From positions 1 to 48,266 of IMG/VR virus record IMGVR_UViG_3300036980_000753: a DNA stretch of 48,266 nucleotides; one strand, written 5' to 3'. This DNA is from a virus. The position numbers and the translations under genes were made by a program. The notes below the pieces were generated by a model that was given only the letters and a program-made list of their open reading frames with translations, was not told the origin of the DNA and searched no databases. Shown one piece after another: positions 1 to 35,405 of this stretch; position 1 is the stretch's first letter; each line of letters starts with the position of its first letter.

Positions 1-2220
1 ATATGCACCATACAGGTAGGCATTCTGGGTCATAAATCCTGAGATGCCTTCTAGTTGATGTTGCCATGTGGTCCCACCATCTGGAGAAAGCTGCAATTGA
101 ATTACGTCAGTAGCTTGAATTGGCGTCTGAAATACAACCCGCACTCTGGAGCGGGCAGCACTAGTTGTAGAGTTGAAACTAATGAAGCCGACACCCTGCG
201 GCCCGTAACCAGTGACTGAAGTTGTATCATCAAAGTTAGCTGATGTGTCTGCAGTAGTGCTCCAAGCATACTCAACATCGTTAGCGCCGAGGTTGACGGT
301 GCCGCTGCCTGCCCATTCGGCGACAGGAATTAAGGCCCGGATGCTGAATGATAGTGCGTTGCCGAAGCCAGTGTAGGTGCTTGCGCTGCCGAAGAAGGTC
401 CTTGCCCTTGCAACGGCGTCGCCGGTGATTGCGCTCTGGACAATCGCAAAGTGTGTTGCGTCATAAGCCACGACGATACATGGCACCGTCGACTGCACTA
501 AACCGTCAGCGCCAGTATTGAATGTACCACTGCCAATTTCTGAATCTGCAGCCGATCCGCCAGTGAGTGTGGCTTTGGTTGTGTCTACCGTGAGACCTAA
601 CGGAATCGTAAATAAGTAAATACCAGAGCCGCCGCTGCCTGCTCCCTGCTCAAAGTCCCATTTGATTTCCATGGAATCGCCAATGCGTTTCCATGTGGAG
701 AGATTTCTTACAATGGTCCCCACAGTCGGGTTGGTTGTCACAGCGGTAATAAGCTGAGTGTAGGCTGTCGCAGGCGAAATCGCAGCACCCTGCACAACCG
801 TGCCAGGCCCAACCACGATGTTATCCAGCTTCACCGTCCAAGCAAGCGCACTCACAGTCGCAACATGGAGTATCAAGCGGTAGCTTGTCGATGTGGTGCT
901 ATCAAAAGTCACCTGAAATGTGCCCGAGGCTGCTGGCACAGAGACCGACGAAGGCGTGATGAGAACCGAGTTGGTGACGTCATAGACGTAGACCGTGAGA
1001 TCGCCAGCGACGTAGTTCGCATCTGTCGCGAGCAGATCGAATTCGATTTTCAGCTTCTTGGATTTGTCTGGCGCATCAATTGAGAAGTTGTAGCGAGCGC
1101 CTTCGCCCTGGCCGTTGACAGCGGACTTGGCAATGGAGAAGTCGTAGCTGCCGCGCATAGGAGACGTTGGGTTCGCGCTCAGAGTGATAGTCGTCGGAGA
1201 ACCGCTGTCGCCATCGACTGGTGTGCTTCCGGCTGTGTCTTTGTAAGCAGCCCAGCCTGTCGTAGTGCCGCGCTCAAAGTCACTGTTGGCAATGTAGTTG
1301 ATGTCATTGCGCGGCTTGTTCAGATTCGCATGCCGACGAACCGAGAGGTTCGAAAAGACGGTCGTCACGTAGTCCGACGAACCATCGGTTTTCACGGCAT
1401 ATAGCGGCACGTACCTAAGCAGATCAATCTGCGCTGGCGTGTTAGCGAAGACAATGAACTGCCCGCTCGTACCAGACGAGATCGCGTATACCTTGCGGTC
1501 AGCGCTGCCCACGCTCGTCTGCGATGGCAGGACGCCAGTGTCTAAGTAGACATAGTAGGCAGTCGAAGCAGCTGGGGAGATGACGCCCGCAGTATTGACG
1601 GCAGATTTGAGGTTGAAACTGATGTCAGATGCGAGGTAGAGCTCACGGCCATCATCCAAGAAGATGGAGCCAGCTTTAACCGACGCAACGTTAGTGGCGA
1701 TTCCCTGCAGTTTGAATGAAGAGTCTCCCGAAGCCCCTGGGATAAAGATCTTACTGCTGTTACTGAAAACCAAAGCCTGCCCATCTTCTGGTGCAGTCGT
1801 CGTAATATCGATGTCTTTGATGTCGCCCTGCGACAGATACAGCGGATCGAATTTAACCGCGACGGCAAAGGTTAGATTGTTCCCGCCAGAGTTGTTGGTA
1901 ATCTGAAGAGTCGTGCCCTCGAAACCGACCTTCTCAATCACGGTAAAGGCACTACGAGCTGGCGTAGTGTACGGCGTAAGGGATACCCACTCGCCGCCCG
2001 TGAAGTTCAGGAGCTCGTAGTTTAGAGATGTGATGTCGGTATAGAAGTTGTGTAGAAGGTCTACCGTCTCAGTCTGATCAAAGTCCGCAATCTCAAACCA
2101 GCGGCTATTGATAGAGTCGCCGATCTTTTTATAGAGAGCCTCGATGGAGGCATGCAGACCAGCTCCGCCAGTCGTGCCTAGTGCGGGATGGTCTAACTGT
2201 AGTCTAGAGATCACGGCCAT
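1..2220 (-). CDS. Tail fibre / receptor-binding-like protein, 3' end outside window
   Basis: An open frame runs from ATG at 2220 to the left edge without a stop: 740 residues visible, C-terminus missing. An AGGAG ribosome site lies 8 nt before the ATG. The sequence is rich in Gly, Ser, Thr and Asn and largely beta-type. The N-terminal part (about 20-130) has KKIGDSINSRWFEIADFD and is followed by repeated beta-rich segments. Near residues 305-325 is NYIANSDFERGTTGWAAY, a motif I associate with carbohydrate-binding-like modules of phage fibres. Around 455-500 is VVGPGTVVQGAAISPA followed by WKRIGDSMEIKWDFE, echoing the N-terminal KKIGDS pattern. It is the last gene of the leftward tail operon, where receptor-binding proteins usually sit. 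Function is inferred from position and composition. Confidence 0.7.
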   Translation of the reverse strand, partial: MAVISRLQLDHPALGTTGGAGLHASIEALYKKIGDSINSRWFEIADFDQTETVDLLHNFYTDITSLNYELLNFTGGEWVSLTPYTTPARSAFTVIEKVGFEGTTLQITNNSGGNNLTFAVAVKFDPLYLSQGDIKDIDITTTAPEDGQALVFSNSSKIFIPGASGDSSFKLQGIATNVASVKAGSIFLDDGRELYLASDISFNLKSAVNTAGVISPAASTAYYVYLDTGVLPSQTSVGSADRKVYAISSGTSGQFIVFANTPAQIDLLRYVPLYAVKTDGSSDYVTTVFSNLSVRRHANLNKPRNDINYIANSDFERGTTTGWAAYKDTAGSTPVDGDSGSPTTITLSANPTSPMRGSYDFSIAKSAVNGQGEGARYNFSIDAPDKSKKLKIEFDLLATDANYVAGDLTVYVYDVTNSVLITPSSVSVPAASGTFQVTFDSTTSTSYRLILHVATVSALAWTVKLDNIVVGPGTVVQGAAISPATAYTQLITAVTTNPTVGTIVRNLSTWKRIGDSMEIKWDFEQGAGSGGSGIYLFTIPLGLTVDTTKATLTGGSAADSEIGSGTFNTGADGLVQSTVPCIVVAYDATHFAIVQSAITGDAVARARTFFGSASTYTGFGNALSFSIRALIPVAEWAGSGTVNLGANDVEYAWSTTADTSANFDDTTSVTGYGPQGVGFISFNSTTSAARSRVRVVFQTPIQATDVIQLQLSPDGGTTWQHQLEGISGFMTQNAYLYGAY

Positions 2221-2235
2221 TTGGGTAGCTCCTAA

Positions 2236-2643
2236 TCAGATTCCGTAGGTAGCAAAATTGATATTATGGGCTTCGAAAGGTGCGCGATGGAGTGTCCCAT
2301 CATCATACACGGATACTTCCTCATCCCTCGTCTGGATCTTTAAGCCGACCACCTGAGACATCGGTTGGAGTTTGCCGCCCGCTACTGACATAGGTACTGA
2401 TGCTACAGCAAGCCATTGGAAGTTTCGAAAATCCTGTCCTGGAACCCGCACGACTGGCTTAACCTCTCGCGTCTCTATGTTCTTAGCCTCGATGATCGCA
2501 CTAACAAGGCCTTCGTGGTTGTGACACCAGGCTTTGGTGCTCAAGTCATCCTGCGAGCCTTGGTTAGACCACATCCCAAATTTCGTCGGTCTATCCGCCC
2601 ACTCGTAGCGCCAGCGTAATAAGTATTTCTTTGGTTGGCTCAT
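2236..2643 (-). CDS. Small tail-module protein, unknown function
   Basis: 135 residues, between the fibre gene and another tail protein and separated from both by only a few bases, so surely co-transcribed. It is soluble and mixed alpha/beta with no signal peptide or membrane segment. The N-terminus reads KKYLLRWRYEWADRPTKFG, followed by a His/Cys patch (AWCHNHEGL, about 38-46) and a C-terminal DDGTLHRAPFEAHNI. I do not recognise the family. Its place between hub/distal genes and the fibre suggests a minor tail or fibre-attachment component, which is inference. Confidence 0.6.
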   Translation of the reverse strand: MSQPKKYLLRWRYEWADRPTKFGMWSNQGSQDDLSTKAWCHNHEGLVSAIIEAKNIETREVKPVVRVPGQDFRNFQWLAVASVPMSVAGGKLQPMSQVVGLKIQTRDEEVSVYDDGTLHRAPFEAHNINFATYGI

Positions 2644-2646
2644 TGG

Positions 2647-3315
2647 TCAAGCTGTGTAGCTATAGTTGAAAACGAGCTCCCACTGAATGTAACCGCCTTG
2701 GCTGAAGCTGTTTGGGATGTAGAGTCGAGTTTTGAGATGAGCAGCATCGCCCAAAACCGTGTCCGCAGCTTTGCCGATCTGTCCTGCTACAGGGCTGCTA
2801 GCTGCCGTTTCTCCTGGTAGATTGTAGACCATTGCCGATGCTGCAATAGTGAACGTGCTAGCAAGGCTGATGCCGTCTGTGAGTCCATCACCATAGATTT
2901 TGACGACGCTAGGAAAGCCCGACTGGTCGAATTGATTGGTAGTGCTTGCATCCCAGTCCATGTCGATCCAAAAACCGCCGCTCAAACCGTCTGCGTTATT
3001 TTTGGATGAACCAGAGGCATTGGCTAGGTTCTTTAGGGCAGTAAAGTCATTGGCAGCACTATCAGCGCCCCCGTATGTGAAGCCAGTTCCCACGCCATAG
3101 GTCTGAATAAACGTACCGCAAGACGTGATTGGATCGATTGTCGCGTTATGTGACACAAATAGTGGCTGGCTGCCGGTATTCGCGCTTTTCAGGATCACGG
3201 GACAATAGCTGTTATTAACACAGCTGCCCAAGTCGCACCCCGTTCCGCCTGAGGCCAGAGCATCAGCTACTGCTGAACCATCTAGAGTCTCACTAATTGT
3301 CAGAAGGACAGCCAT
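2647..3315 (-). CDS. Putative minor tail protein, unknown function
   Basis: 222 residues starting at an ATG preceded by AAAGGGAG. The composition is Gly/Ser/Ala/Asn-rich and beta-type, like phage tail surface proteins. Several cysteines lie in the first 70 residues (GCDLGSCVNNSYC, then TSCG near 64), unusual for a cytoplasmic virion protein. A central stretch has GGFWIDMDWDAST, and the C-terminus ends in an aromatic beta strand (YIQWELVFNYSYTA). No family is recognised. It is tightly packed in the tail operon with its neighbours (3-12 nt gaps), so a virion role is likely. Confidence 0.6.
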   Translation of the reverse strand: MAVLLTISETLDGSAVADALASGGTGCDLGSCVNNSYCPVILKSANTGSQPLFVSHNATIDPITSCGTFIQTYGVGTGFTYGGADSAANDFTALKNLANASGSSKNNADGLSGGFWIDMDWDASTTNQFDQSGFPSVVKIYGDGLTDGISLASTFTIAASAMVYNLPGETAASSPVAGQIGKAADTVLGDAAHLKTRLYIPNSFSQGGYIQWELVFNYSYTA

Positions 3316-3327
3316 GCTAATCTCCCT

Positions 3328-5049
3328 TTAAGTTTCTTCTGCGATAGTTGCCGCTGTGCCGCCAGTGATGCCAGTAAAAGTTGGATTATGCCCCGGAAAA
3401 GGCATCATCTGAAAAGACCAGACCTTGATCGGTATCTTTATTCCTACGGGATCGTATCCAATCTCTCGGATCATAGCAGGAACATCATTAAACTGAGACC
3501 CCTGTATATTAACATTGATTCGGACAAAGTCCCCAATATCCAAAAGCATGCCGCGCCAAGTTAGCGCCATATCGATGACTTCTAGATAGGCAGAGGCTAT
3601 CCTGAGGATCTCCTTTAGTTGATTGACCACAGAAGATTCTTCATAAAGATTCGGAAATACTATTCTTTTTGAGATTTCTTTGCTTGCCTGCAAGATTGCA
3701 GCTGCATTCTTGTAGATTTTGGTCTCGCCAAAGTTCTCATTCGCATTAGGCAGAAAGTTAAAGGAGGCTCTCGCCCTGTTAAAGTTGTTACGATCATCCA
3801 ATTTTGGCACAAAAGAGTCCGCAACTATGTCCCAGTTCTTCACAGGAAAGGTAGGCACAGCCACAAAGTCGTCTAGGTGGAGCGAGTTGATCTTTAGCTT
3901 AAGGTCGCGATCTACAAAAGCCTCTAGTCTCACCTGCTCAAGCATAGATAGGACGTAAGTTAGGGCTGGCTGTGGCTCTTGGATCCATGCTCGTGACTTG
4001 ATGGAGGCTATGGCGGACTCAGAGGGGCTGTTCTTGTCACGGTAAGTAGCCCAAGAGCTATCAAAATCGCCACTAACTACCGCGCCATTCGTGTAATTAA
4101 GCAGGATATCTTGAGCCTGGGAGATCAAGTTATCGTCGTATGAGCCCAGATCCTTGCCTTTGACCTGCACAAAGAACTTGTCACCGCTCTTATACTCGAA
4201 CAGAGCTCCATCCATAAGTGTTAGGCAGGGAGGACTAGTCCCAGATTGCCTAAGTTGGAAGGCTCGATTGTTAATAATCCCGACTACGTCGGCACCATCG
4301 AAGTTGAAATAGGTCTGGCCCCGCAGGCAATACACCTTAGTGATATCAAATAGCGTGTTGTCATTATCAGATATGACTAATTCTAGCAGCGTATTGAATG
4401 CCGCTACGCCGCCATTCAAGCCGTTGACGACATAGGCTGGAATCGAGGCACCCTGCTCTTGGACGTTTACAGTCCAGTCCCCGTATACCAGCGGAACAAT
4501 TGTATTCTCTACATCGCCCTCTATGTCTGGGTAATCCGAGGCTTTGAAGACAGCCTTGGGGAATTCGACATTGATCTTCTCAAAGTCGTTTCGCGCGACT
4601 AGCGTAAAGCTATTAACCGTTCGCCCAAAGCCACCCTGATCCGTGACCTGGCCACTAAAGATCTCTTTGTATGTAGAGGCCACATCACGCAGCCCAATCT
4701 TCACGGATACCCGCTTGCCTATCCATCCGCCAAAGTCGTCACCAGCTGGAAGTATGTTGTTGTAATACCCATCAGCGTTATTAATTTCTAAAGAAACCTG
4801 GCTGAATTCTAGCGTAGGAGATAAAAAATCACCGACAGTCCGAGTGACAACCGGGAAAACTAAGCGAGCTTCGTAGTAGGTATCTCCTACGTATTTGTTC
4901 CGGTCTGATAGATGCAAGGTCCCAGAGAATGCCGTATCTATATCAACGATCATCTCTAGCTGATTTACCAAGTTGTCATGGCAATCATCTAGAAAGTCTT
5001 GATCTAAAACCGTAGCGGTTTCGTAGGGCTTTCTATCCGAAGTTGCCAT
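3328..5049 (-). CDS. Baseplate / tail hub-like protein
   Basis: 573 residues directly downstream of the distal-tail-like gene, the usual position of the tail hub or tail-associated protein. After a short N-terminal helix region it has strands resembling the first hub domain (RLVFPVVTRTVGDFLSPTLE and VSLEINNADGYYNNIL, about 60-105). These are followed by GKRVSVKIGLRDVASTYKEIFSG (about 112-133), a pattern of gp27/hub-type proteins. A later region (about 355-520) has a second-hub-domain feel, with LRLEAFVDRDLKLKINSL and WRGMLLDIGDFVRINVN. Assigned from order and these patterns. It could also be classed as a Gp27-family or siphovirus tail-tip protein. Confidence 0.6.
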   Translation of the reverse strand: MATSDRKPYETATVLDQDFLDDCHDNLVNQLEMIVDIDTAFSGTLHLSDRNKYVGDTYYEARLVFPVVTRTVGDFLSPTLEFSQVSLEINNADGYYNNILPAGDDFGGWIGKRVSVKIGLRDVASTYKEIFSGQVTDQGGFGRTVNSFTLVARNDFEKINVEFPKAVFKASDYPDIEGDVENTIVPLVYGDWTVNVQEQGASIPAYVVNGLNGGVAAFNTLLELVISDNDNTLFDITKVYCLRGQTYFNFDGADVVGIINNRAFQLRQSGTSPPCLTLMDGALFEYKSGDKFFVQVKGKDLGSYDDNLISQAQDILLNYTNGAVVSGDFDSSWATYRDKNSPSESAIASIKSRAWIQEPQPALTYVLSMLEQVRLEAFVDRDLKLKINSLHLDDFVAVPTFPVKNWDIVADSFVPKLDDRNNFNRARASFNFLPNANENFGETKIYKNAAAILQASKEISKRIVFPNLYEESSVVNQLKEILRIASAYLEVIDMALTWRGMLLDIGDFVRINVNIQGSQFNDVPAMIREIGYDPVGIKIPIKVWSFQMMPFPGHNPTFTGITGGTAATIAEET

Positions 5050-24842: not shown

Positions 24843-26699
24843 TTACCCAACTTCGAGAGCGCAAAGACGCGCTTTCATATTTTCCAGGCGTTTGCGGGTT
24901 GAGTCAAGTTTCTTCTGATTTGAATTAATCAACTTATCTTTTATTGGCTGAGATAGCAAGCCGTCCAGCGGATCCTGCTCATCGTATTCAGCCTTGGAGC
25001 CGTACTCTAGTTGCGCACTCATGATGCGATCATGAATGGCAGCCTTAGAACTATCTTCTTTGTACTGTGCAGCGTCTTTCTTGAATGCGACTCGCGCTGC
25101 ATCAGCAGCTTCCGCAGTGTCAATTGCATACAATATGTTAACAGGATCTCCGTACTTCGCCAAATCTTGCGGCCCACTTTCAGCAAATGTGAGCGCAGCA
25201 TCTGCCAAAGCTTCAATCCCGAACTCCTTTACCCTCATCTCTTGTGCGGCTTTGAGATCTTCAGGGCTCATTCCGGCCTCAGGAATGCCGTTAGCCGCTG
25301 ACTTACTAGCGTCTTCGCCTTCTGCCATTGGTGCCATAGCATCCTCTTCGCCTTGGCTCTCAACGACTTCAAAGGCCTGCAGGGATATGACAGCTTTCTG
25401 CAGTGCCTGCAGCTCTGCGACTACTTGCCCAAGCAGCACATTAGTCTGCATCTGAGCATGGAGATATGGATTGCCGTTGTCAGCTTCGGCAGCGTCCGTG
25501 CGGTCTACAGTGATTTCTGTAGTCGGTGGCTGTGTCACGCCTTGGTCAGCTTGCTTAATCTGCATGCTGATTGAGTCTGCTAGCTTAAACCACTTGGCAT
25601 ATTCAGCTCTCGATGGCTTCTGGCACTTGCCCTCAGAGCAGCCTGAGATAGCCTCAGCTACCGCTGCGTTCTGGTCCTTGCCTTCTTGCATAAGCTTAGC
25701 GATTGAAGAAGCTACGCAGTCTTGGAAGGCAGATGCTGTAGAAACTGCTTCATCTTTACCCGCATCTCCCGCAGCCGCGCTGCCATTGTCAGCTCCTCCT
25801 GCCTTGCCTCCTTCCGCAGCTCCCGGCGCTTCAGCTGCTTGGTCTGCTTCCGCTGGGACTTCTTCTTCTGGCTTTGCTTGCTCTGCTTGACTTGCCGCAT
25901 CTTCTACCTCTTTATCACCAGCGTCTAGTTTAGTTAGGGCGGCGAGGTCTAGGCCTAGGAGCTCTGATGCTGCAGCTAGCACAGCCTCAGGAACCGGAGT
26001 GATATTACCCGCAAGGATGTCCATCAGAGCCCCTTCCTCAAGATCAGCTTTCTCAGCCATAGCTTCGAGGATGTCATCACGCGATAGCTTCTCAGTCTTC
26101 TGCTTCTCATACATGGCGTTATGGATAGCGGCAGCTACCCAGGCTCCTTTGCGAGTCAAGATGTCGTGCCGCAAGGCATCAGGATCCATCGACTTCAGCA
26201 TTTTTCCTGTGACTTCAAATAACGAGTCCTGATTCATGGGCACCCCTACGATCGAAATTTCAAACAATTCCGCTTTGGTAATTGTCTTAACGCCAGTCTT
26301 GGCATCCGTCAGCTGATCGATAGCATTGAAGCCAACCGAGAATGCACGAAGGATCTTCTCCTGTACCAGCCCTCTAATCCGATTGATCAGAGGATCATCC
26401 ATACTGGACAGTTGAGCTTTGACCCACAGACCCTGAGGCGTAGGCTTGACCTGCAAGGCTTTGCCTACCGGTGTACTGCCTAGCTGAGGATCGAAACCGT
26501 GATTATATAAAATCACAGGATTGCTCTCAAAGTTCTTTAGCTCCCAGGCATCTACAGCAATGATGTCATTGCCTCGATCGACTACTGCCTTGTTCGCGAA
26601 GCCCTGAATGATCAGGCCCTCAGTCGTCATCTTGATTTCGCCGACACCGACTAGGCTAGTTGTCTGTTTTGGCACAGTTCGTTTAGTGATCGTTTCCAT
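24843..26699 (-). CDS. Prohead protease fused to scaffold-like domain
   Basis: ATG at 26699 (GGAG 6 nt upstream) is preferred to an upstream GTG: 618 residues. Residues about 15-185 are an HK97-type serine protease: GFANKAVVDRGNDIIAVDAW, catalytic His in YNHG, catalytic Ser in LRAFSVGF, and the third conserved acid in ELFEISIVG. The remaining 400 residues are an acidic, Ala/Glu-rich scaffold-like tail (for example AEQAKPEEEVPAEADQAAEA) with a Cys-containing helical segment (FQDCVASSIAKLMQEG, EGKCQ) and C-terminal helices (KDKLINSNQKKLDSTRKRLE). Protease and scaffold in one chain is known in several phages. The self-cleavage sites are not identifiable here. Confidence 0.88.
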   Translation of the reverse strand: METITKRTVPKQTTSLVGVGEIKMTTEGLIIQGFANKAVVDRGNDIIAVDAWELKNFESNPVILYNHGFDPQLGSTPVGKALQVKPTPQGLWVKAQLSSMDDPLINRIRGLVQEKILRAFSVGFNAIDQLTDAKTGVKTITKAELFEISIVGVPMNQDSLFEVTGKMLKSMDPDALRHDILTRKGAWVAAAIHNAMYEKQKTEKLSRDDILEAMAEKADLEEGALMDILAGNITPVPEAVLAAASELLGLDLAALTKLDAGDKEVEDAASQAEQAKPEEEVPAEADQAAEAPGAAEGGKAGGADNGSAAAGDAGKDEAVSTASAFQDCVASSIAKLMQEGKDQNAAVAEAISGCSEGKCQKPSRAEYAKWFKLADSISMQIKQADQGVTQPPTTEITVDRTDAAEADNGNPYLHAQMQTNVLLGQVVAELQALQKAVISLQAFEVVESQGEEDAMAPMAEGEDASKSAANGIPEAGMSPEDLKAAQEMRVKEFGIEALADAALTFAESGPQDLAKYGDPVNILYAIDTAEAADAARVAFKKDAAQYKEDSSKAAIHDRIMSAQLEYGSKAEYDEQDPLDGLLSQPIKDKLINSNQKKLDSTRKRLENMKARLCALEVG

Positions 26700-26730
26700 A
26701 GGCACTCCAATGACTCAAGCATGTTGACAA

Positions 26731-29700
26731 TTATACGTCCAGTTTCTCGCCAGGCGGTAACATGATCAGGGTACAGCGGCAGTTGTGGCTCACGAATCCT
26801 TCTGCTATATAGTAACCACCAACCGTCTGGAGGTTATATACATGGCCCTCGAAAGAAGACCGGACATCGACACTGACCACATCATCAAGCTCCACTTCGA
26901 GGAGAAGCTCTCCGTCGCGCAGATCAGCAGGATGCTTAATGTCTCTAGAACTACCATCCTGGGACGTCTGAATAAATGTGGGCTCACTCAACGCGGAAGA
27001 TCCGAGGCTGAATTTCTCAAATGGAGCCGAATGGATAGGGAGCAAAGACTGGCCCAGGTTCGCGCTGCTAATACCAGGATGCGTGGCTCCGACCCCACCA
27101 AAAGACTGCTTATCTCCGCCAAGACTAGGTCTATCACCATGAGCAAAGTTGGATTCGGCGAGGCTGAAGTCCATGCCCACTTGAAAGCTCTTGGTTTCAA
27201 TTCCATTCTTCAGGGAGTCTGGGACACCTACAATATTGACATCATGTGTGGAACCGTCGCGGTGGAAATCAGCGCGTCCTCCGTCTACCCTCATAGGTGC
27301 AAAAGAAGACTTAAGCATCGAACTGAAAACTTGATCAATGCCGGATTTAATGTGATTTACGTCTCGCTGCGTAGTAGCCGCAGTATCGAACCCGCCTGTC
27401 TTGAATACCTTGGAGCCTTCGCTAAGGCTTCCCAGTCCGATCCAGCCTTTATCCGACAATACAGGATGATTAGGAGTTGCGGTAAGTTGCTTGCCGCTCT
27501 TGAATTTGACGGTAACCATTGGTCCCCTGTAGAACCTTTGGAATGATTTTTCCATACCAAGAGCTTCAACATTTGTGCCAGCTGGGAAACAGTTGATGAC
27601 CTCGTTAGCTGGCCCGCCTATGTCTCTAGGCCAGCGCAGGCCATTGCTGAAGTCATCTTCTGCCGCAACAGTTTCAGCCTGCAGCTCAACGTGAGAGTCA
27701 CGGACCCTAGCATCACCAGCGTTTAACCAGGCTTTGCGCAGTCCAGGTATAACTTTCTGTGCGTTCTTGAGAGCTGCACCCTGACCAATGGAGACAGCTG
27801 TTAGCGTCTCAGTCCTAGCTATTGTCTCTGCCTTGCCATTCGTAGCAGCAAAGTCGCCAAGCTCTTTAGCTACGCGAGTGATGATCTCACTGATGGATTC
27901 ACCCCGCTTAGTGCCTTGAGTGATTGAAGCCATAATAGATTCTGTTCTGGTGTCGCTGATCCTATCGAAGCTCTCGATGCCTCTTTCCACTAGGATCTCG
28001 CGGCGACCCTCTGCATCTTTCTTTCTAAGCACAGCAATCTTTTCTTTGTCTCTGTCGTTGATCACAAACTCTATCTGCGAGTCATAGCCGAGCTCAACCG
28101 TGCTAAGAAGAATATCGGTGTAGGCTTCTTTCCATTGCGTCTCTAGCTTAGCGAAGGCTTGGCTAAGCTCTCTTCGCAGCTGTGTCTTAGACTTAGGCTC
28201 TGCTGCCTTAGTCTCTATCAAAGATCTCTTGATTATGGGTTCAGCCAACTCAGCCATGCTTATTAGAGTATCTAGAGCAAGCTCATAGACCGCCTTGCCT
28301 TCATTGTCCTTTACGGTTTCTTCCATGCTTTTGACGTATCGATCTACCCAGCCAGCACTACGCTCATGCACGAAAGCTAGCAGGGTAGCTGCCTTGTCAA
28401 TCGTAGGTTGCTCTATAGATTGGACAGGCTCAACTTGCGGAGGTTGCTCTACAGCTGGAGCAACAGAACCGGGTTCAGGAGTCGGACTAAAGCCAGCTCC
28501 AACCGCACCCATGATCGCCTCAGCATCTTCTACACTAAGCGAGAAGGCTACCCGTAAGATCTGCACCCCAGTTTCGCGCGGGATCGAGCCTTGGGCTACT
28601 TGGTTAACGACGTCGACTAGGCTAGTGACCTGTGCGCCGTTGAGAGATTGCTGAGGAGTCGTGGAGGCTTGGTCTGCTACCTCTTGCGTGATGTCAGTCT
28701 CAGCTGCTGGTGCTGCTGGTGCTGCTGTCGGCTCGGCTGCCGGAAGAGCTAACAGAGGATTAGTGACAATGGCAGGAGCTACAGATGGGAACTTTGGAAC
28801 CGAGATGAAGGGAGCATCGTCGGCAGGAAGGCTGCTGGGCTTCAGATCCCAGACCTTCGACCTGACTTCATTAACTGACATGCCGCCATTGAGCATCTCC
28901 TTTGCTAGGAGAGCCTTAGATAGCTGGTCATCCTTAAGAGACTCAACATTCTCTAGATCAAACTTAAACGAGAAGTTTGAGCCTAGCTGCTTAGCAAAGA
29001 ACTTATTTAAGCCGCCTTCAATCATGCGGCAGGTGGGGATTAAAGTAGCTTCCCAGAAGTTCCTGAGAGCTGTCTTGTATTCCTCTGAGCCTAGAGAGCC
29101 TCCGGTCTGCAAACCGACTTCATGCTTAGGCACTTTGAGCAAGCTAAGGATGGTTTCCCTGTTGCTATTAATGAGATCTGTCAGCCGTTGATCTGCAATA
29201 GAATGCGAGACTGTCGTAGCCTTCATGCCCTTAGGCAGCCAAAGAGCTCGTCTAGCATTGCTTCTACCGGTATGAGCAAGCTCAAAAGACCGCGTCATTC
29301 TTAACGCCTGGTCTTCGTTAACCTGCTTATCCATCTCAATGATCATGCTTGGAGTAGCTTGTTTTAAATAAAACTGATTCAAATAGTCCTGGCTGTACCG
29401 ATTAAACAAAATGCTTTTTCGCCCAGCTAGGAATGGCGAGAGCCCGTGTATCAGGGAACCCGGGTTCGGTCTACGGATATGTATGATCGAATCAACAAGG
29501 TACTCAATGACCTGTTTCTTCTGCTCTTTGTCCTGGATATCACTATCGCCTGTCGCGAAGTTATAGGCTCTGATTGAGCCATCGCGATCAAAAGCAATGT
29601 CAGCCATAGATGCACGCAAAGAGACTAGCCATTGATTAGACTTTGAATACCAAAGGATGGCATTGCCGAGCAGTGCATAGTTGACGACGGTATTATACAT

Positions 29701-30072
29701 CCATGAGTGATAGTCCTGCATGGGATTCGGAGCCTGCACTAGATCATTTAGAGGATGCCCATCAGCATAGGCAATGGTCTCGACGCCATCCTCTAAGGTC
29801 TTGCGCACGACGTTTAAAGGCTGACTGCTGATCTTGTTGGCGATTAGGTCAACGACAATATAGACCCAGTCTTCAGTAAAAAAGAGTGATTCAATGGTGG
29901 ACATGTCAGCCCAGGCTTGAACCTCTTCTTTCCATAGATCGTTTACAGCATGGCTGGGATCAGCATCTCGAGAGAAGTTATAGCCTTTAAATTGCAGATC
30001 CTGCTCATCTGACTTGTCAGTTGCGATGTTGATATACTCATGCAGTTTGTTTTCGATGTCTTTATCACTCAT
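26731..30072 (-). CDS. Portal-MuF fusion protein interrupted by an intein
   Basis: 1113 residues before splicing, 843 after. AGGGG lies 7 nt before the ATG. Residues about 20-420 are an HK97-type portal: WVYIVVDLIANKISSQPLNV, YHSWMYNTVVNYALLGNAIL, IHIRRPNPGSLIHGLSPF and VPKHEVGLQTGG. A Pro/Ala/Thr-rich linker (about 430-570) and a helical region lead to a MuF head-morphogenesis domain (about 715-827): ISEIITRVAKELGDFA, IARTETLTAVSIGQGA, KAWLNAGDARVRDSH, then PANEVIN joining CRCTLIML across the intein. The intein starts at Cys828 and ends at Asn1097, leaving Cys1098 as the +1 nucleophile. Role: DNA entry ring plus an internal head protein. The order terminase, portal, protease, capsid is canonical. 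Confidence 0.92.
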   Translation of the reverse strand: MSDKDIENKLHEYINIATDKSDEQDLQFKGYNFSRDADPSHAVNDLWKEEVQAWADMSTIESLFFTEDWVYIVVDLIANKISSQPLNVVRKTLEDGVETIAYADGHPLNDLVQAPNPMQDYHSWMYNTVVNYALLGNAILWYSKSNQWLVSLRASMADIAFDRDGSIRAYNFATGDSDIQDKEQKKQVIEYLVDSIIHIRRPNPGSLIHGLSPFLAGRKSILFNRYSQDYLNQFYLKQATPSMIIEMDKQVNEDQALRMTRSFELAHTGRSNARRALWLPKGMKATTVSHSIADQRLTDLINSNRETILSLLKVPKHEVGLQTGGSLGSEEYKTALRNFWEATLIPTCRMIEGGLNKFFAKQLGSNFSFKFDLENVESLKDDQLSKALLAKEMLNGGMSVNEVRSKVWDLKPSSLPADDAPFISVPKFPSVAPAIVTNPLLALPAAEPTAAPAAPAAETDITQEVADQASTTPQQSLNGAQVTSLVDVVNQVAQGSIPRETGVQILRVAFSLSVEDAEAIMGAVGAGFSPTPEPGSVAPAVEQPPQVEPVQSIEQPTIDKAATLLAFVHERSAGWVDRYVKSMEETVKDNEGKAVYELALDTLISMAELAEPIIKRSLIETKAAEPKSKTQLRRELSQAFAKLETQWKEAYTDILLSTVELGYDSQIEFVINDRDKEKIAVLRKKDAEGRREILVERGIESFDRISDTRTESIMASITQGTKRGESISEIITRVAKELGDFAATNGKAETIARTETLTAVSIGQGAALKNAQKVIPGLRKAWLNAGDARVRDSHVELQAETVAAEDDFSNGLRWPRDIGGPANEVINCFPAGTNVEALGMEKSFQRFYRGPMVTVKFKSGKQLTATPNHPVLSDKGWIGLGSLSEGSKVFKTGGFDTAATTQRDVNHIKSGIDQVFSSMLKSSFAPMRVDGGRADFHRDGSTHDVNIVGVPDSLKNGIETKSFQVGMDFSLAESNFAHGDRPSLGGDKQSFGGVGATHPGISSANLGQSLLPIHSAPFEKFSLGSSALSEPTFIQTSQDGSSRDIKHPADLRDGELLLEVELDDVVSVDVRSSFEGHVYNLQTVGGYYIAEGFVSHNCRCTLIMLPPGEKLDV
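26783..26811 (+). promoter_or_regulatory. Possible sigma70-type promoter for antisense nuclease
   Basis: TTGTGG (26783-26788), 17-nt spacer, TATATA (26806-26811). It starts one base inside the intein edge and lies 31 nt before the nuclease ATG. Matches to consensus are 3/6 and 4/6, so it is weak. The -35 hexamer is antisense to the block G Ser-His-Asn codons and the -10 to Tyr-Tyr-Ile. Confidence 0.4.
26829..26833 (+). promoter_or_regulatory. Ribosome-binding site of antisense nuclease (GGAGG)
   Basis: GGAGG ends 8 nt before ATG 26842. This favours the ATG over an earlier in-frame GTG at 26785, which lacks a good site. The same bases, read on the minus strand, encode Leu-Gln of the intein block F motif NLQT. 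Confidence 0.8.
26842..27546 (+). CDS. HTH + Vsr/EDxHD-like homing endonuclease nested antisense in intein
   Basis: 234 residues encoded wholly within the intein DNA on the opposite strand. Residues about 10-45 are a helix-turn-helix (HIIKLHFEEKLSVAQISRML then NVSRTTILGRLNKCG). Residues about 105-180 resemble very-short-patch-repair/EDxHD nucleases: GFGEAEVHAHLKALGF, YNIDIMCGTVAVEISASSVY (acidic Asp, then V-E-I), Pro-His-Arg, and INAGFNVIYVSLR. The E...D...E...H pattern is consistent with this PD-(D/E)xK-related fold; exact catalytic residues need alignment. Codons are in register with the intein frame, so TTA, CTA and TCA are excluded throughout. Likely role: cleaving intein-free portal genes to drive homing. 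Strong RBS and coherent domains argue that it is real. Confidence 0.88.
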   Translation: MALERRPDIDTDHIIKLHFEEKLSVAQISRMLNVSRTTILGRLNKCGLTQRGRSEAEFLKWSRMDREQRLAQVRAANTRMRGSDPTKRLLISAKTRSITMSKVGFGEAEVHAHLKALGFNSILQGVWDTYNIDIMCGTVAVEISASSVYPHRCKRRLKHRTENLINAGFNVIYVSLRSSRSIEPACLEYLGAFAKASQSDPAFIRQYRMIRSCGKLLAALEFDGNHWSPVEPLE

Positions 30073-30081
30073 CGCAATCCC

Positions 30082-32511
30082 CTAATTAAATGGGCTGTCA
30101 TTGTCAGAATCACTGATTAAATCTCTGTAGTATCTGTCTAGGTCCATAAGCCTACGATCCTTTGGCAGATCGTCTAAGAAGCCTACTTCAAATGTACCTT
30201 GGTTATACTCTGACGCGGCAGCATTGGCTAAAGCTAAGGCGATCACAATATCATCATGGGAACCGGATGAAGCATTATAGCGCATCATCCCGGTATCGGA
30301 GACTGTTACCTCATATGAGGCTAACTCTGAAAGTAATAGAGGCCAATTAGGTAGCTCTATCTCTTTCTTTTCGAAGGTCAGCCCCAGGCCATTGATGACA
30401 GAGGCTTTAGACTGATTTGAGAAAGTGAAGCCCTGAAAAGGCATAGGGAAATGGCCAAGCATGTCATCTAGAGCTTCACCTACACCAGTCTTGTCATGCC
30501 AGATGGTGCCAATAGATTTGAAGTTCTTGCTGAATTGAAAGAGCTCTTTCACAGCTGTCACGTAAGAGATGCCATGGAACCGTTGGAAGCCTACAACCTT
30601 CCTTGGCATCGTGTTGTAGTCGATGGCTAGGAAGACTGCGTAATCCCGCTGCTTAGCCCAGTCTACGCCTATCACAACGTCTGCGTTCTTAGCCGACTGG
30701 TGTATCCAGTGCTGGCTAGTAGAGCCATCGAACTCTAGCTCTAACCCTCTAACGCAATCAGGGACTCCCAAGAATACAGATGACTCTTCGCAGAACTCAG
30801 CTAAATAGAATTGGCGAAACAGTCTATCTGGTAAATCTCTGCGAGCAGCATCTATGACGCTCTGATGAACCATAGGGTTGGCTGTCGTGGGAGCATGGAT
30901 AGCCAGGTACTTGGGATTCTTACCAGCTTTCAGAGCCCACTCCATCTCTGCCTTGCATTCCATGTACCGCTTGTAGAACCAGTTCTTTCCTAGTGGCGTA
31001 CTAATCCACATAGAAGGACCACGGGTAAAGGTCTGTGTAGTCCTAGCTGAGACGTAGGCTTGGTAAGGCATCTTAGCTGCCTCATCCCCTATCTGCCCGT
31101 GAATGGCTGAGCCCTCTAGATCCATTGGGTTCTGCGTGTGCATGAACTCAATCTCTGAATGGAGATAGGGGAATTTGACAACCATCTTTGTCTGCAGGAA
31201 TTCAGAGTGAGGAGCTGGCGGTACGATCTTACCGAAGTAGTCCATACCGATCTTAGCCTGCCGATAGATGGGAGCTAGCCATCTCCACTTAGCAGAGCGC
31301 TTGAGCATAGCGGCGTTAGTAAGACAGGTAGCAGCCCCTATCGAGTTGTGGGTAGGTATGCAGGCTTCTGTAGTGAGGAAAAGATGGCTAGGGTTCTCTA
31401 CCTGTATGCACATCACAGGAACCGATGAGATCTTTTCTACGTTTAAGATAGTGCGCTGCTTAGACTTAAGCCCTGTAGTCTTTCGCAGCCTGTCTGCTTT
31501 GCGCTTCAAGCGGAACACTGGAAAGTCTGTACTGAACCAGACCCGGTAGCACCACTGCTTATCTACGCCGTTTAAGCGCCCGATCCGTCCAGCCCTGTTG
31601 ACCTTGATACCTAAGCTCATTGCCAATAGAGCGACAGCATCAGCAAGGCTTTTGTTAGTATTGTCAAAGCAGCAGTTCCCACGCTTATCAACCGTGCCTT
31701 CAGTGTCCATCAAGGCTTGTAGCAAGGCTATACGGTCTTTGACGCTTGAGACTAAATATTCTTGAGGCACATGTTTATTGCCACACAATCTATGTTGATT
31801 GAGTAGCGTAGTTAAACCTTTAACTCTCCATTTCCAAAGGTCCCCGACTTTATCGACAGTAAAACCTTCATCCCTAATATAGTCAGCTAGTTCATGGTCT
31901 GGTTTAGTATAGGAACCGCCACCAGTATCGCCATCCCCGAGCCAGACGCCTAGAGTATATGGCGGGATAGGCAGCTCTCTCTTAGTAAATTCAAGCGGAG
32001 CTGACACATTTGTAACAGCGTGGTTAGGCCTGGATGTTCCACCCATTGCAATGGTCTGAGTTTCAAAAATTTCTAAAGTCGTGCGTTTCCTTGGTTTCGC
32101 TTCTGTCGTCTTGCAGCGGTCGTTAGGCGAGAGAGCTCTAGCCATATTCTTCCGCTCTGTATGCGTAGTAGTCACCCAATCATGTTCAGCATCTGCAATG
32201 ACTTCAGTACCGTCTGAAAAGGTCAGCTTGTAGCAATCGTGGTCATACATGAGATCGGTGGCGTATACGACGCGGGTAGGCTTGCCATGCTCATCAAAGA
32301 CAAAGTCACCTTTCTTAATCTCGCAGAGTGGGATATAACCTCTATCGGGAGTTGGGGTAAGTGTCTGATAATATTCGGCTTTCCCAAATTTTGTGCCGCA
32401 TGCCACAAAAGTTTCTGCCACATCGCCATAGAGAAAGGCTCGCATGATGAGCTCTTGCTTACGACTGTGTGGCTTAGGCGGATGGATCTTGACCTGTGCT
32501 ATATCGCTCAT
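30082..32511 (-). CDS. terL: Terminase large subunit interrupted by a class 3 intein
   Basis: Start chosen at ATG 32511, which overlaps the small terminase stop (ATGA); an in-frame ATG exists at 32535. 809 residues, about 464 after splicing. The Walker A motif CGTKFGK/SIGAATC is split by the intein immediately after its Lys. Downstream are LEGSAIHGQIGDEAAKM (Walker B with Asp-Glu), a motor segment ISTPLGKNWFYKRYMECK, and an RNase H-like nuclease with DVVIGVDWAKQRDYAVFLAI, TIWHDKTGVGEALDDML and SGSHDDIVIALALANAA carrying the acidic triad. It uses ATP to pump DNA into the prohead and cuts it. Without splicing the ATPase would be dead. Confidence 0.93.
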   Translation of the reverse strand: MSDIAQVKIHPPKPHSRKQELIMRAFLYGDVAETFVACGTKFGKAEYYQTLTPTPDRGYIPLCEIKKGDFVFDEHGKPTRVVYATDLMYDHDCYKLTFSDGTEVIADAEHDWVTTTHTERKNMARALSPNDRCKTTEAKPRKRTTLEIFETQTIAMGGTSRPNHAVTNVSAPLEFTKRELPIPPYTLGVWLGDGDTGGGSYTKPDHELADYIRDEGFTVDKVGDLWKWRVKGLTTLLNQHRLCGNKHVPQEYLVSSVKDRIALLQALMDTEGTVDKRGNCCFDNTNKSLADAVALLAMSLGIKVNRAGRIGRLNGVDKQWCYRVWFSTDFPVFRLKRKADRLRKTTGLKSKQRTILNVEKISSVPVMCIQVENPSHLFLTTEACIPTHNSIGAATCLTNAAMLKRSAKWRWLAPIYRQAKIGMDYFGKIVPPAPHSEFLQTKMVVKFPYLHSEIEFMHTQNPMDLEGSAIHGQIGDEAAKMPYQAYVSARTTQTFTRGPSMWISTPLGKNWFYKRYMECKAEMEWALKAGKNPKYLAIHAPTTANPMVHQSVIDAARRDLPDRLFRQFYLAEFCEESSVFLGVPDCVRGLELEFDGSTSQHWIHQSAKNADVVIGVDWAKQRDYAVFLAIDYNTMPRKVVGFQRFHGISYVTAVKELFQFSKNFKSIGTIWHDKTGVGEALDDMLGHFPMPFQGFTFSNQSKASVINGLGLTFEKKEIELPNWPLLLSELASYEVTVSDTGMMRYNASSGSHDDIVIALALANAAASEYNQGTFEVGFLDDLPKDRRLMDLDRYYRDLISDSDNDSPFN
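31345..32379 (-). mobile_element. Class 3 intein (345 aa) with LAGLIDADG endonuclease in terL
   Basis: Begins at Ala (AEYYQTLTPTPDRG), not Cys or Ser, and ends P-T-H-N before Ser+1. It carries the class 3 Trp/Cys/Thr triad: Trp68 in DAEHDWVTT (block B, also lacking the usual Thr), Cys324 in VPVMCIQVENPSH (block F), and Thr343 just before His-Asn (block G). The endonuclease motifs are LGVWLGDG (143-150) and LLQALMDTEG (219-228), with likely acidic residues Asp149 and Glu227. In class 3 inteins Cys324 would form the first branched intermediate. Insertion is in the ATP-binding P-loop, a typical conserved target. Confidence 0.9.
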
Positions 32512-32984
32512 TGGTCGTCCACGCTGAGCAGGCATTGCAGATCTTCAATTGGATCTATCTCAGCTTCACATGCTTCAGCTTCAATCACTTCCGGCTTAAG
32601 TAGATCCTGTAACAGCCTGCCGTCTTCCGTCATAGACGTAACGTAGACAGTCTGAGTAGCTACTGTCACATCAATCTTGTCCTTGACCTTGCCGATGCGG
32701 CTGCGATCTAAGATGAAGTTCAGCTTGCTGTGATCGCCTTCTGTGTAAGCCTTGAGCCATATGGAGATGACAGACTCTTCTAACAGCGTTAGATGTCCTG
32801 ACTCTTTTAGCTCCATGATCTGAGATAGCGGAAGGTCTGCCAGCTTATCGATCATATCCTTCAGCACTCTCGGCGATAGCTGTCTCAGCTTCTGAATTTC
32901 TGGTGGCGCTTTTGGTCTACCGAGGGGATTCAAGACCTGTCCTGGCTTGATATCTCTGCCACCTGTTTTGATTCCCTTAGCCAT
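32508..32984 (-). CDS. terS: Terminase small subunit
   Basis: 158 residues. The N-terminus GGRDIKPGQVLNPLGRPK is the signature of a phage small-terminase/DUF5681-like family. It is followed by helices KLRQLSPRVLKDMIDKLADL and TLLEESVISIWLKAYTEGDH, LNFILDRSRIGKVKDKID, and an acidic C-terminus (EACEAEIDPIEDLQ). It precedes and overlaps terL. Role: DNA recognition and loading of the motor. A ribosome site is weak. Confidence 0.8.
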   Translation of the reverse strand: MAKGIKTGGRDIKPGQVLNPLGRPKAPPEIQKLRQLSPRVLKDMIDKLADLPLSQIMELKESGHLTLLEESVISIWLKAYTEGDHSKLNFILDRSRIGKVKDKIDVTVATQTVYVTSMTEDGRLLQDLLKPEVIEAEACEAEIDPIEDLQCLLSVDDQ

Positions 32985-34367: not shown

Positions 34368-35312
34368 TTATTCTAAGTCTACGGAATCTTCATTCCGACT
34401 CCGAAAGTAAGCCCTAATCTCATCGCGCAAACGAATACTGCGTAGCGTCATATCATCATGAAGCTGATAAACGCCATAGCTATTGCGTTTGAGATCACCA
34501 TCTGGACGATAGTCGTTGTTGATTAGGATCTGCCAGCGGTCCCAATACCTTCTGTCTTTCTTCTTGCCATGGAACATATGCATCAAGCTACCTGGCACAT
34601 ATCCAACATCACGACGAAGCGAGCTCCAGCAGCGATCTTGATAGTCCATGATGCTTTTCTGATACGCGGAACTTGTTTTCGGATGAAACGACAGCTCTGC
34701 TTTTCCGCAAAATGAGAGCGCCATATGTCTGTCACCAGCCCCGAGGACGCCTTTGTCAAAAAGGCCACCGATGTCGTCAATTGCCTCACGCCTTGCCGCC
34801 CAGGCATAGCCCGGATGCCACACGCCGTATGCTGTTTCGGGATGGATCGCGCCCTTCTTAATGTACTGTCCCATAAAAGATTTATGCATCTGTAGGACTT
34901 GGTTCTCCGGACCAAGATCAATTGCCGTATCAAACATTTGTACGATCTTGTAGACCTGCAGCTGGTGGAGTGTGTCGCTGATCCAGTCTTTCTGCAGGAA
35001 TTCTACGTCTGCGTCAATCCACGCAACCGTTTCCCAATCGTCTGGAAGCCTTGATATGGCTATGTTGAGACAGTTCTCTTTATGCCAAAGTTCGTCCCAA
35101 TGCCGCAGCTGAATGTGCCTAGGATTGTTTGCGTCTGTGATAGCAAAAGGCCTGTCACCGAGCTGGAGCTCACAGACCCATAGGTTAGGAGTGTGCTGAT
35201 GGATGTACTTTTCAAAGTTTTTGAACAACCTGTACCTTGAAGAGAACATAGCCGGGTTGCTAATCATCGTAACCACATTGAACTTGTCTCTATCGAAGGA
35301 CTCAAAACGCAT
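34368..35312 (-). CDS. GT-A-type glycosyltransferase
   Basis: 314 residues from ATG 35312. The N-terminus FNVVTMISNPAMFSSRYRLF and ENCLNIAISRLPDDWETVAW lead into the metal- and sugar-nucleotide-binding DxD in WIDADVEFL (about 99-107). Later there is GVWHPGYAWAARREAIDDIG (about 165-184), GAGDRHMALSF (a typical Asp-His acceptor-side motif), and HMFHGKKKDRRYWDRWQIL. This matches phage-encoded glycosyltransferases of large siphoviruses. Substrate unknown: virion glycoprotein, host surface or modified DNA are all possible. It is transcribed towards the terminase cluster. Confidence 0.8.
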   Translation of the reverse strand: MRFESFDRDKFNVVTMISNPAMFSSRYRLFKNFEKYIHQHTPNLWVCELQLGDRPFAITDANNPRHIQLRHWDELWHKENCLNIAISRLPDDWETVAWIDADVEFLQKDWISDTLHQLQVYKIVQMFDTAIDLGPENQVLQMHKSFMGQYIKKGAIHPETAYGVWHPGYAWAARREAIDDIGGLFDKGVLGAGDRHMALSFCGKAELSFHPKTSSAYQKSIMDYQDRCWSSLRRDVGYVPGSLMHMFHGKKKDRRYWDRWQILINNDYRPDGDLKRNSYGVYQLHDDMTLRSIRLRDEIRAYFRSRNEDSVDLE

Positions 35313-35405
35313 CAAATCACCCCAAGGTTCGAACTATTTAGCCACCTAACTGACTTTTGATATGAACGATAAGCGCAGAAACCGATTGGGATTTGATTCG
35401 TAAGT

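Follow-up and report, generated by a model that had tools for sequence, protein, structure and literature searches.

In the usual inteins the nuclease is a domain of the intein itself, as set out in the available text of PMC11855218; the same text describes the ShiLan domain, a hidden, out-of-frame HNH homing nuclease in a phage methylase. Homing endonuclease genes located on the antisense strand of nuclear group I introns are described in the available part of PMC9548176, and the available part of PMC8425127 reports an intein for the capsid morphogenesis gene of Salmonella jerseyviruses. Among the papers listed in literature searches, no title or abstract describes an antisense nuclease in an intein, with the reservation that the preprint of Gosselin et al. 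2025, on actinobacteriophage inteins of non-canonical architecture, may report such a layout and may include the Gordonia and Mycobacterium phage members of the group considered here.

The window, namely, the whole analyzed stretch of viral DNA (48,266 nucleotides, positions 1 to 48,266 of IMG/VR record IMGVR_UViG_3300036980_000753), contains a gene for a portal–MuF fused head protein (26,731–30,072, minus strand), with Pfam matches to Phage_portal (1.4e-49) and Phage_Mu_F (8.5e-10). This gene hosts an intein of 270 amino acids (26,782–27,591, minus strand), supported by an alignment of 43 inteins and an AF2 model, which runs from Cys1 to His269-Asn270 and is followed by Cys; its edge (Asn/Cys) lies between 26,782 and 26,781, and the +1 Cys is present in the window. 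Block F, GHVYNLQT (26,824–26,847, minus strand), and block G, EGFVSHN (26,782–26,802, minus strand), were placed by the 43-intein alignment, with coordinates obtained by arithmetic. At the N-terminus, C1 and N41 are invariant, and T39 and H42 of the block B motif TxNH are present in at least 90% of the 43 inteins; at the C-terminus, N270 before Cys is invariant, partly by construction, since Asn-Cys also served as the anchor defining intein ends. The Pfam Intein_splicing match of the host gene (3.2e-5, 24.2 bits) is below the curated cut-off of 35.8. The AF2 model of the intein has a pLDDT of 70.8 as a whole, with ten-residue blocks at 89–98 for residues 1–60, 93–95 for residues 231–270 and 40–58 for residues 121–230. 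Accordingly, splicing blocks are found at both ends, the middle is predicted to be poorly ordered, and the insert is classed by its sequence blocks as an intein, with protein splicing predicted.

Two further features of the window were recorded. The adjoining gene for the large terminase (30,085–32,535, minus strand) contains an intein-like insert with matches to LAGLIDADG_3 (3.2e-6) and Hom_end (1.7e-4), so that two adjacent packaging genes have inserts of different nuclease design. A frame of 315 amino acids (34,368–35,315, minus strand) has no PHROG match at E 0.1.

On the opposite strand, entirely within the intein, lies a gene of 234 codons (26,842–27,546, plus strand) for a homing-type nuclease with an HTH and a Vsr-like domain, recognized by its open facing frame, its AF2 model and fold matches. 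The two frames are in codon-to-codon register, each antisense codon being the reverse complement of one sense codon, so that the third position of a sense codon is the first position of an antisense codon. The antisense protein is predicted with a pLDDT of 91.9, against 40–58 for intein residues 121–230. In the fold search, the best match was Vsr 1cw0 (Z 9.4, 3.1 A, 111 residues), followed by 1vsr (Z 9.2), 3r3p (Z 9.2, 93 residues) and 3hrl (Z 9.0); the next matches were two unrelated mitoribosome chains (Z 8.3 and 7.3), which makes the structural margin modest. The N-terminal part of the model aligns with resolvase HTH domains (Z at most 6.8). The profile search detected 3hrl (4.3e-7) and 3r3p, the catalytic domain of I-Bth0305I (6.8e-6). 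Taken together, the model suggests a nuclease fold resembling Vsr and I-Bth0305I, located behind an HTH. Pfam assigns the window nuclease to HTH families, with GcrA barely over the cut-off (27.2 against 26.9 bits, residues 15–85), while Pfam MTES_1575 is found in 4 of 10 of its relatives; matches in PHROGs and NCBIfam are weak or of the HTH type only.

Residues E107, D133 and E142 are invariant in 45 nuclease sequences. The EDxHD motif consists of a first E and D and a later H and D. The first two correspond to E107 and D133 in these sequences, and after E142 no His or Asp is conserved at the level of 90% or more; the nuclease is not placed among the EDxHD members here. From the coordinates, the residues opposite E142 and D133 are Phe109 and Val118, respectively, of the sense motif DFHRDG...V, which thus mirrors the antisense active site at least in part. 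At 27,256–27,270 (both strands), the conserved sense motif DFHGD is opposite the invariant Glu of the nuclease, and the second Asp of DFHGD is present in at least 90% of the 43 inteins although it faces an antisense Val for which other codons are usable, hinting at some constraint on the sense strand too.

The preferred reading, to which we assign a probability of roughly 0.86, is a mobile intein with a homing nuclease encoded on its own opposite strand, the start codon and ribosome-binding site of which are placed in the codons of block F. The plus-strand gene would start inside block F, where the His codon CAT gives ATG and the Asn-Leu-Gln codons give a Shine–Dalgarno sequence, usually 7–9 nt before the start. 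The protein with the HTH and Vsr-like domains would cut intein-free MuF genes at the Asn/Cys-Arg-Cys codons, and repair of the cut MuF gene would copy the intein in. The minus strand must presumably encode a splicing intein, and the middle of the intein would be mostly filler shaped by the nuclease gene. Sequence comparison shows two coding frames, purifying selection on the antisense frame, selection on its start codon and ribosome-binding site, empty sites in close relatives and signs of horizontal movement; from these we infer transcription, translation, cutting and splicing.

A single-protein scan of viral contigs with the window nuclease revealed no relative, and subset alignments were needed; with these, 127 loci came from three viral scans and 3 from one genome scan. 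Two alignments contained no stretch of sufficient conservation for scanning. Plasmids contain one relative. The loci of the scans, the phage loci and the window were collapsed to 80 distinct nucleases, of which 77 anchored loci were used after removal of L099 and L115, with stops in the facing frame, and of L051, without a findable Asn-Cys. The enlarged set comprised 157 records collapsed to 134; L141 was omitted, and L199, L200 and L223 failed anchoring. Loci with fewer than 120 sense-only codons were omitted from the energy null of the first set (3 of 77) and from the codon nulls of the enlarged set (11 of 134). The main codon null is based on the codon usage of the exteins, from which intein usage may deviate, and the analysis was repeated with codons pooled from the other columns of the region; this region-matched null covered 125 of the 134 loci, namely, those with a 60-nt spacing between edge and start. 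The sense-intein scan included some contigs already found in earlier scans. Since the later scan was selected on GH[VI]YNL, the frequency of His is quoted from the 77 nuclease-selected loci only. Salmonella phage GE_vB_HIL, considered as a mini-intein, was rejected as an unverified record with shortened frames.

All elements proposed in the earlier note, that is, TTGTGG, 17 nt, TATATA, GGAGG and ATG, are present on the plus strand in this order, and the sense codons read as proposed there, with ATG opposite the CAT His codon of GHVYNLQT, GGAGG opposite Asn-Leu-Gln and TTGTGG opposite Ser-His-Asn. In its full form, the proposal has a promoter of blocks F and G (taken here as sigma70-type), whose −35 is TTGTGG and whose −10 is TATATA, driving expression of the antisense gene and moving together with the intein, a view that we consider doubtful. 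The proposed −35 (26,783–26,788, plus strand) matches TTGACA at 3 of 6 positions, as weak a match as described. The possible −10, TATATAGT (26,806–26,813, plus strand), can be read as TATATA (26,806–26,811; 4 of 6 to TATAAT), with TGn before it, or as TATAGT (26,808–26,813). By three measures the TTGTGG/TATATA pair of the window is at chance: the highest promoter score in the window, 6.8, lies below the mean of the codon null, 7.6 (p = 0.70), a pattern scan of 26,600–27,700 revealed 0 promoters, with an average of 0.8 in shuffles, and a match as good as that of the window occurs in 89–100% of null recodings. A terminator-like site at 27,479–27,497 is also at chance (1 found against 0.8 in shuffles).

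The family gives the promoter view more room. The weight-matrix score exceeds the codon null at p 0.05 in 32 of 56 loci with block F His and in 11 of 18 others; TATAAT shows the largest excess of 20 words of the same composition (33 loci against 7.9 expected, n = 123), and TTGACA the largest of 180 such words (16 loci against 2.1). Both words remain enriched under the region-matched null (TATAAT 34 against 11.9 and TTGACA 14 against 1.3, n = 125), with the limitation that the intein edge, being richer in AT than the gene (0.57 against 0.45–0.50), favors words of this kind. The main TATAAT site is at −51 from the start (17 exact against 1.8 expected), with TGn before 26 of 49 near matches (13.7 expected), and is, as a sequence prediction, an extended −10 facing two hydrophobic residues of block G. 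At the offset proposed earlier, −36, fewer than 6 of the 134 loci carry TATAAT with at most one mismatch. The position of TATAGT in the window, −34, is not enriched under either of two nulls (18 against 17.5 and 18 against 22.4), and the enrichment at −32 is small (13 against 4.2). Exact TTGACA at −58, one base downstream of the place of TTGTGG in the window and across the terminal Asn and Ser codons, is present in 7 of 123 loci, and a subset, for example L076, L080 and L081, combines TTGACA at −58 and TATAAT at −34, a spacing of 18 nt. If the −10 lies at −51, the −35 would fall near −74, in the extein, so that an expression unit traveling intact with the insertion, as the earlier note had it, is not general. 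Promoters embedded in the splice blocks are thus likely in many members of the family, whereas the particular pair proposed for the window does not stand out.

The start signal is a different matter. In the window, the start codon ATG (26,842–26,844, plus strand) is opposite the block F His codon CAT, and the ribosome-binding site GGAGG (26,829–26,833, plus strand), 8 nt before ATG, is opposite Asn-Leu-Gln (AAC-CTC-CAG). The ribosome-site energy is −10.0 kcal/mol, a value reached by 8.7% of 300 synonymous recodings, which for the window alone is only suggestive of a ribosome site beyond chance; the RNA around the start shows no unusual structure (z −0.24). Across relatives, block F His is present in 58 of the 77 anchored loci (window included), facing ATG in 50 and GTG in 8. 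Of the 98 His loci with sufficient codon usage in the enlarged set, 85 use CAT, against 41.3 expected (sd 4.2), and where CAT makes up less than 40% of usage it is found in 39 of 49, against 10.3 expected. The block F Leu codon, four residues further on (n = 90), is CTC in 73 loci, CTT in 14, CTG in 2, TTG in 1, and CTA and TTA in none, while the genes' own usage would give 20.5, 13.5, 25.5, 13.2, 9.1 and 8.3, respectively.

Controls for the start signal were the codon nulls and the other alignment columns of these inteins. Anti-SD pairing at loci with block F His averages −6.98 kcal/mol, against −3.22 for the synonymous codon null (t −13.1; since the loci are related, this and the following t values overstate independence), and in 25 loci lacking this His the energy is −2.41 against a null of −2.31, which is no excess. 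A strand scan of 56 His loci places the peak of SD energy in 12-nt windows beginning at −21 to −12 (t −9.1 to −11.9); two lesser SD-like dips, a weaker one within the coding sequence between +48 and +57 (t −6 to −8) and a small one around −69 (t −3.2), show that the energy statistic also responds to other constraints. Region-matched codons predict GGAG or GAGG in 8.2 of 101 His loci and in 1.3 of 24 non-His loci, and the observed numbers are 73 and 6, respectively, so that by this measure an excess exists in the non-His loci as well; three of the loci counted as non-His (L158, L161 and L210) are mis-anchored, with GGAGG, 8 nt and ATG at another offset, and this control is therefore slightly contaminated. 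In the same-region control, Leu is encoded by CTC in 82 of 105 cases at block F and in 1 of 17, 2 of 11 and 2 of 14 cases in three other Leu columns, with TTA in 12 of 17 in the column at −30; His is encoded by CAT in 86 and CAC in 15 cases at block F, and by CAT in 31 and CAC in 39 at block G.

The ribosome site is thus, by codon choice across relatives, far beyond chance, and the start codon and ribosome site of the antisense gene are under selection. The claim that the conserved block F string also specifies the translation start is borne out in the family. The check proposed with it, whether the Leu-Gln codons are fixed to CTC-CAG-like forms that preserve GGAGG, shows a strong preference with exceptions. 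Salmonella phage TS6 (L230) represents, in a milder form, the refuting homologue described in the earlier note: the block F protein is identical and the antisense frame is open, and the synonymous Leu codon CTA turns GAGG into TAGG. No recognizable SD core was found in 9 of 107 His loci. The ribosome site is therefore strongly preferred and not fixed.

Selection on block F DNA could also reflect a binding site, for autoregulation by the nuclease or for homing recognition, in place of a ribosome site. The third positions of blocks F–G are indeed slow (0.109 against 0.429 in the C-extein, for eight MuF genes described below), and the HTH could bind its own promoter region, but the codon signal consists of Shine–Dalgarno letters at Shine–Dalgarno distance, and loci that lack the block F start codon also lack the energy excess. 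In 18 of the 27 non-His loci, a different candidate start is accompanied by an SD energy of −5 or better, three of these being the mis-anchored standard starts, so other starts often have an SD of their own; a binding site as the sole explanation is improbable.

Still less probable is a real antisense gene that starts upstream, for example, at GTG 26,785, or further inside, with block F being incidental. The frame of the window is open back to 26,761, but in 45 of the 77 loci the antisense frame is interrupted by a stop on the stretch from the intein edge to the block F codon, which prevents translation from beginning upstream there, and codon choice favors ATG and the SD at block F.

That the antisense gene is real is seen from its conservation. 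The facing sense frame is free of stops across the whole nuclease in 78 of 80 distinct loci (window included), and in these 78 either other sense phase has at least three stops; the exceptions with stops are L115, a weak match, and L099, a freestanding nuclease. A tblastn search with the antisense protein matched 124 of 50,697 phage records, all at less than 60% identity among the 40 matches listed. In nine phage records inspected, the match is antisense to one annotated gene, with a head or capsid name in six and a hypothetical one in three, and antisense-strand ORFs are annotated only in Salmonella phage PK2, as hypothetical proteins. The sense-intein scan (best 80 of 359 relatives), together with four phage records, gave an antisense nuclease match in 84 of 84 loci, partial in L141. 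MuF inteins without a nuclease, sought as an outside control, were not found among these 84 loci, the ranking of the best 80 by full-length similarity favoring nuclease-bearing loci.

In pairs with at least 45% nuclease identity, divergence at antisense third positions exceeds that at first positions in 85 of 88, and antisense identity exceeds mirror-sense identity in 88 of 88, with alignments built on the antisense protein and therefore leaning towards it; the exteins of the same pairs show ordinary sense periodicity in 66 of 67 comparisons. An unbiased check was made with eight ungapped MuF genes of equal length, six from phages labeled Guernseyvirinae and two unplaced. Divergence at sense positions 1, 2 and 3 is 0.201, 0.128 and 0.494 in their N-extein and 0.212, 0.055 and 0.121 in the overlap, and mean identity is 0.853 for the antisense and 0.760 for the sense protein, the antisense being higher in 27 of 28 pairs. 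By these comparisons the antisense frame, proposed in the earlier note as a nuclease gene inside the intein, is a real gene under purifying selection; since the window nuclease has no relative at 45% identity or more among the 77 loci, selection on the window gene is deduced from distant relatives. That the antisense ORF is an accident of intein codon bias, with conservation mirroring the intein, is scarcely credible: conserved sense DFHGD does lie opposite the putative active site, and the second codon positions of the two frames coincide in the facing phase, but the greater antisense conservation in all 88 pairs and in the ungapped genes, the periodicity following the antisense frame, its confident model opposite a disordered sense middle, the profile and fold matches to homing endonucleases and the freestanding copy in L099 contradict it unless the alignments are systematically wrong.

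Some loci deviate from the common arrangement. The antisense frame of L101 is short, at 171 aa, that of L017 runs into a stop when read from the block F codon, and both loci have an open sense intein; these possible decaying copies were excluded from the list of intact nucleases. In L209, the sense intein match (1069–1956) and the best antisense nuclease match (2083–3111) are separate parts of one long sense frame, so this gene might perhaps hold two such inteins.

Mobility of the intein was assessed from empty sites and incongruent identity. The joined MuF flanks of LSPA1 match intein-free phages contiguously, at up to 97.3% (fFiEco03), and Escherichia phage fFiEco03 has the empty junction ...PPAHPN/CRSTT, with 86.7% nucleotide identity over 450 nt. 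Removal of the intein leaving an intact host protein, together with existing intein-free alleles, was found for Guernseyvirinae and not for the phage of the window. In 26 of 67 pairs, likewise aligned on the antisense protein, nuclease identity exceeds extein identity by more than 0.15; in L056/L050 the nuclease is 84% and the extein 51% identical, and in L077/L074 the two are alike (65% and 68%). These are signs of horizontal movement of the intein, and, with the empty sites, point to cutting of the intein-free allele. In L099 (2456–3316, plus strand, and 3254–3802, minus strand), the related nuclease is a separate gene that converges on an intein-free MuF gene with an intact GCRC site; such a freestanding nuclease is a possible source or by-product.

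Probably, though with less assurance than for the reading of the locus itself, a widespread class of phage inteins represents two-strand mobile elements, in which the codons of blocks F and G carry the ribosome site and start of the nuclease and, in many members, its promoter. If this reading is true, the splice motif is under three constraints at once. The antisense nuclease is mostly missed by annotation, as the single record with ORFs there among the nine inspected illustrates. Two frames facing each other codon for codon offer a clean natural experiment on overlapping genes and on the way in which a conserved protein motif may hold the start signals of a second gene, and the presence of intein-bearing and intein-free phages within one subfamily, Guernseyvirinae, makes homing directly testable.

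Among known systems, inteins with nested endonucleases share blocks A, B, F and G, insertion in a conserved host motif, a homing-type nuclease and empty alleles with the present group, whereas here the nuclease is a separate, fully overlapping gene of the opposite strand with its own start. I-Bth0305I and the Vsr-like (EDxHD) endonucleases are similar in fold (Z 9.2–9.4) and in profile matches to 3r3p and 3hrl, but the nuclease described here has invariant E107, D133 and E142, no His or Asp at 90% or more after E142, and an antisense position within an intein. The intein reported for jerseyviruses is located in the capsid morphogenesis gene of phages of this group; an antisense nuclease is not mentioned in the available part of that report (PMC8425127). 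Antisense genes of group I introns likewise place a nuclease opposite the host gene strand inside a self-splicing element, but they belong to an RNA intron in rDNA with eukaryotic expression, and no second overlapping protein frame is mentioned in the available part of the source (PMC9548176). As far as the available text of PMC11855218 goes, the ShiLan domain differs in using a different reading frame of the host gene, no antisense position being claimed, in lacking intein blocks and a detectable ribosome site, and in being of the HNH type; according to the same text, it is similar in being a homing nuclease hidden in an alternative reading frame of a phage insertion that itself continues the frame of the host gene; the product in the host frame resembles no nuclease and is poorly predicted.
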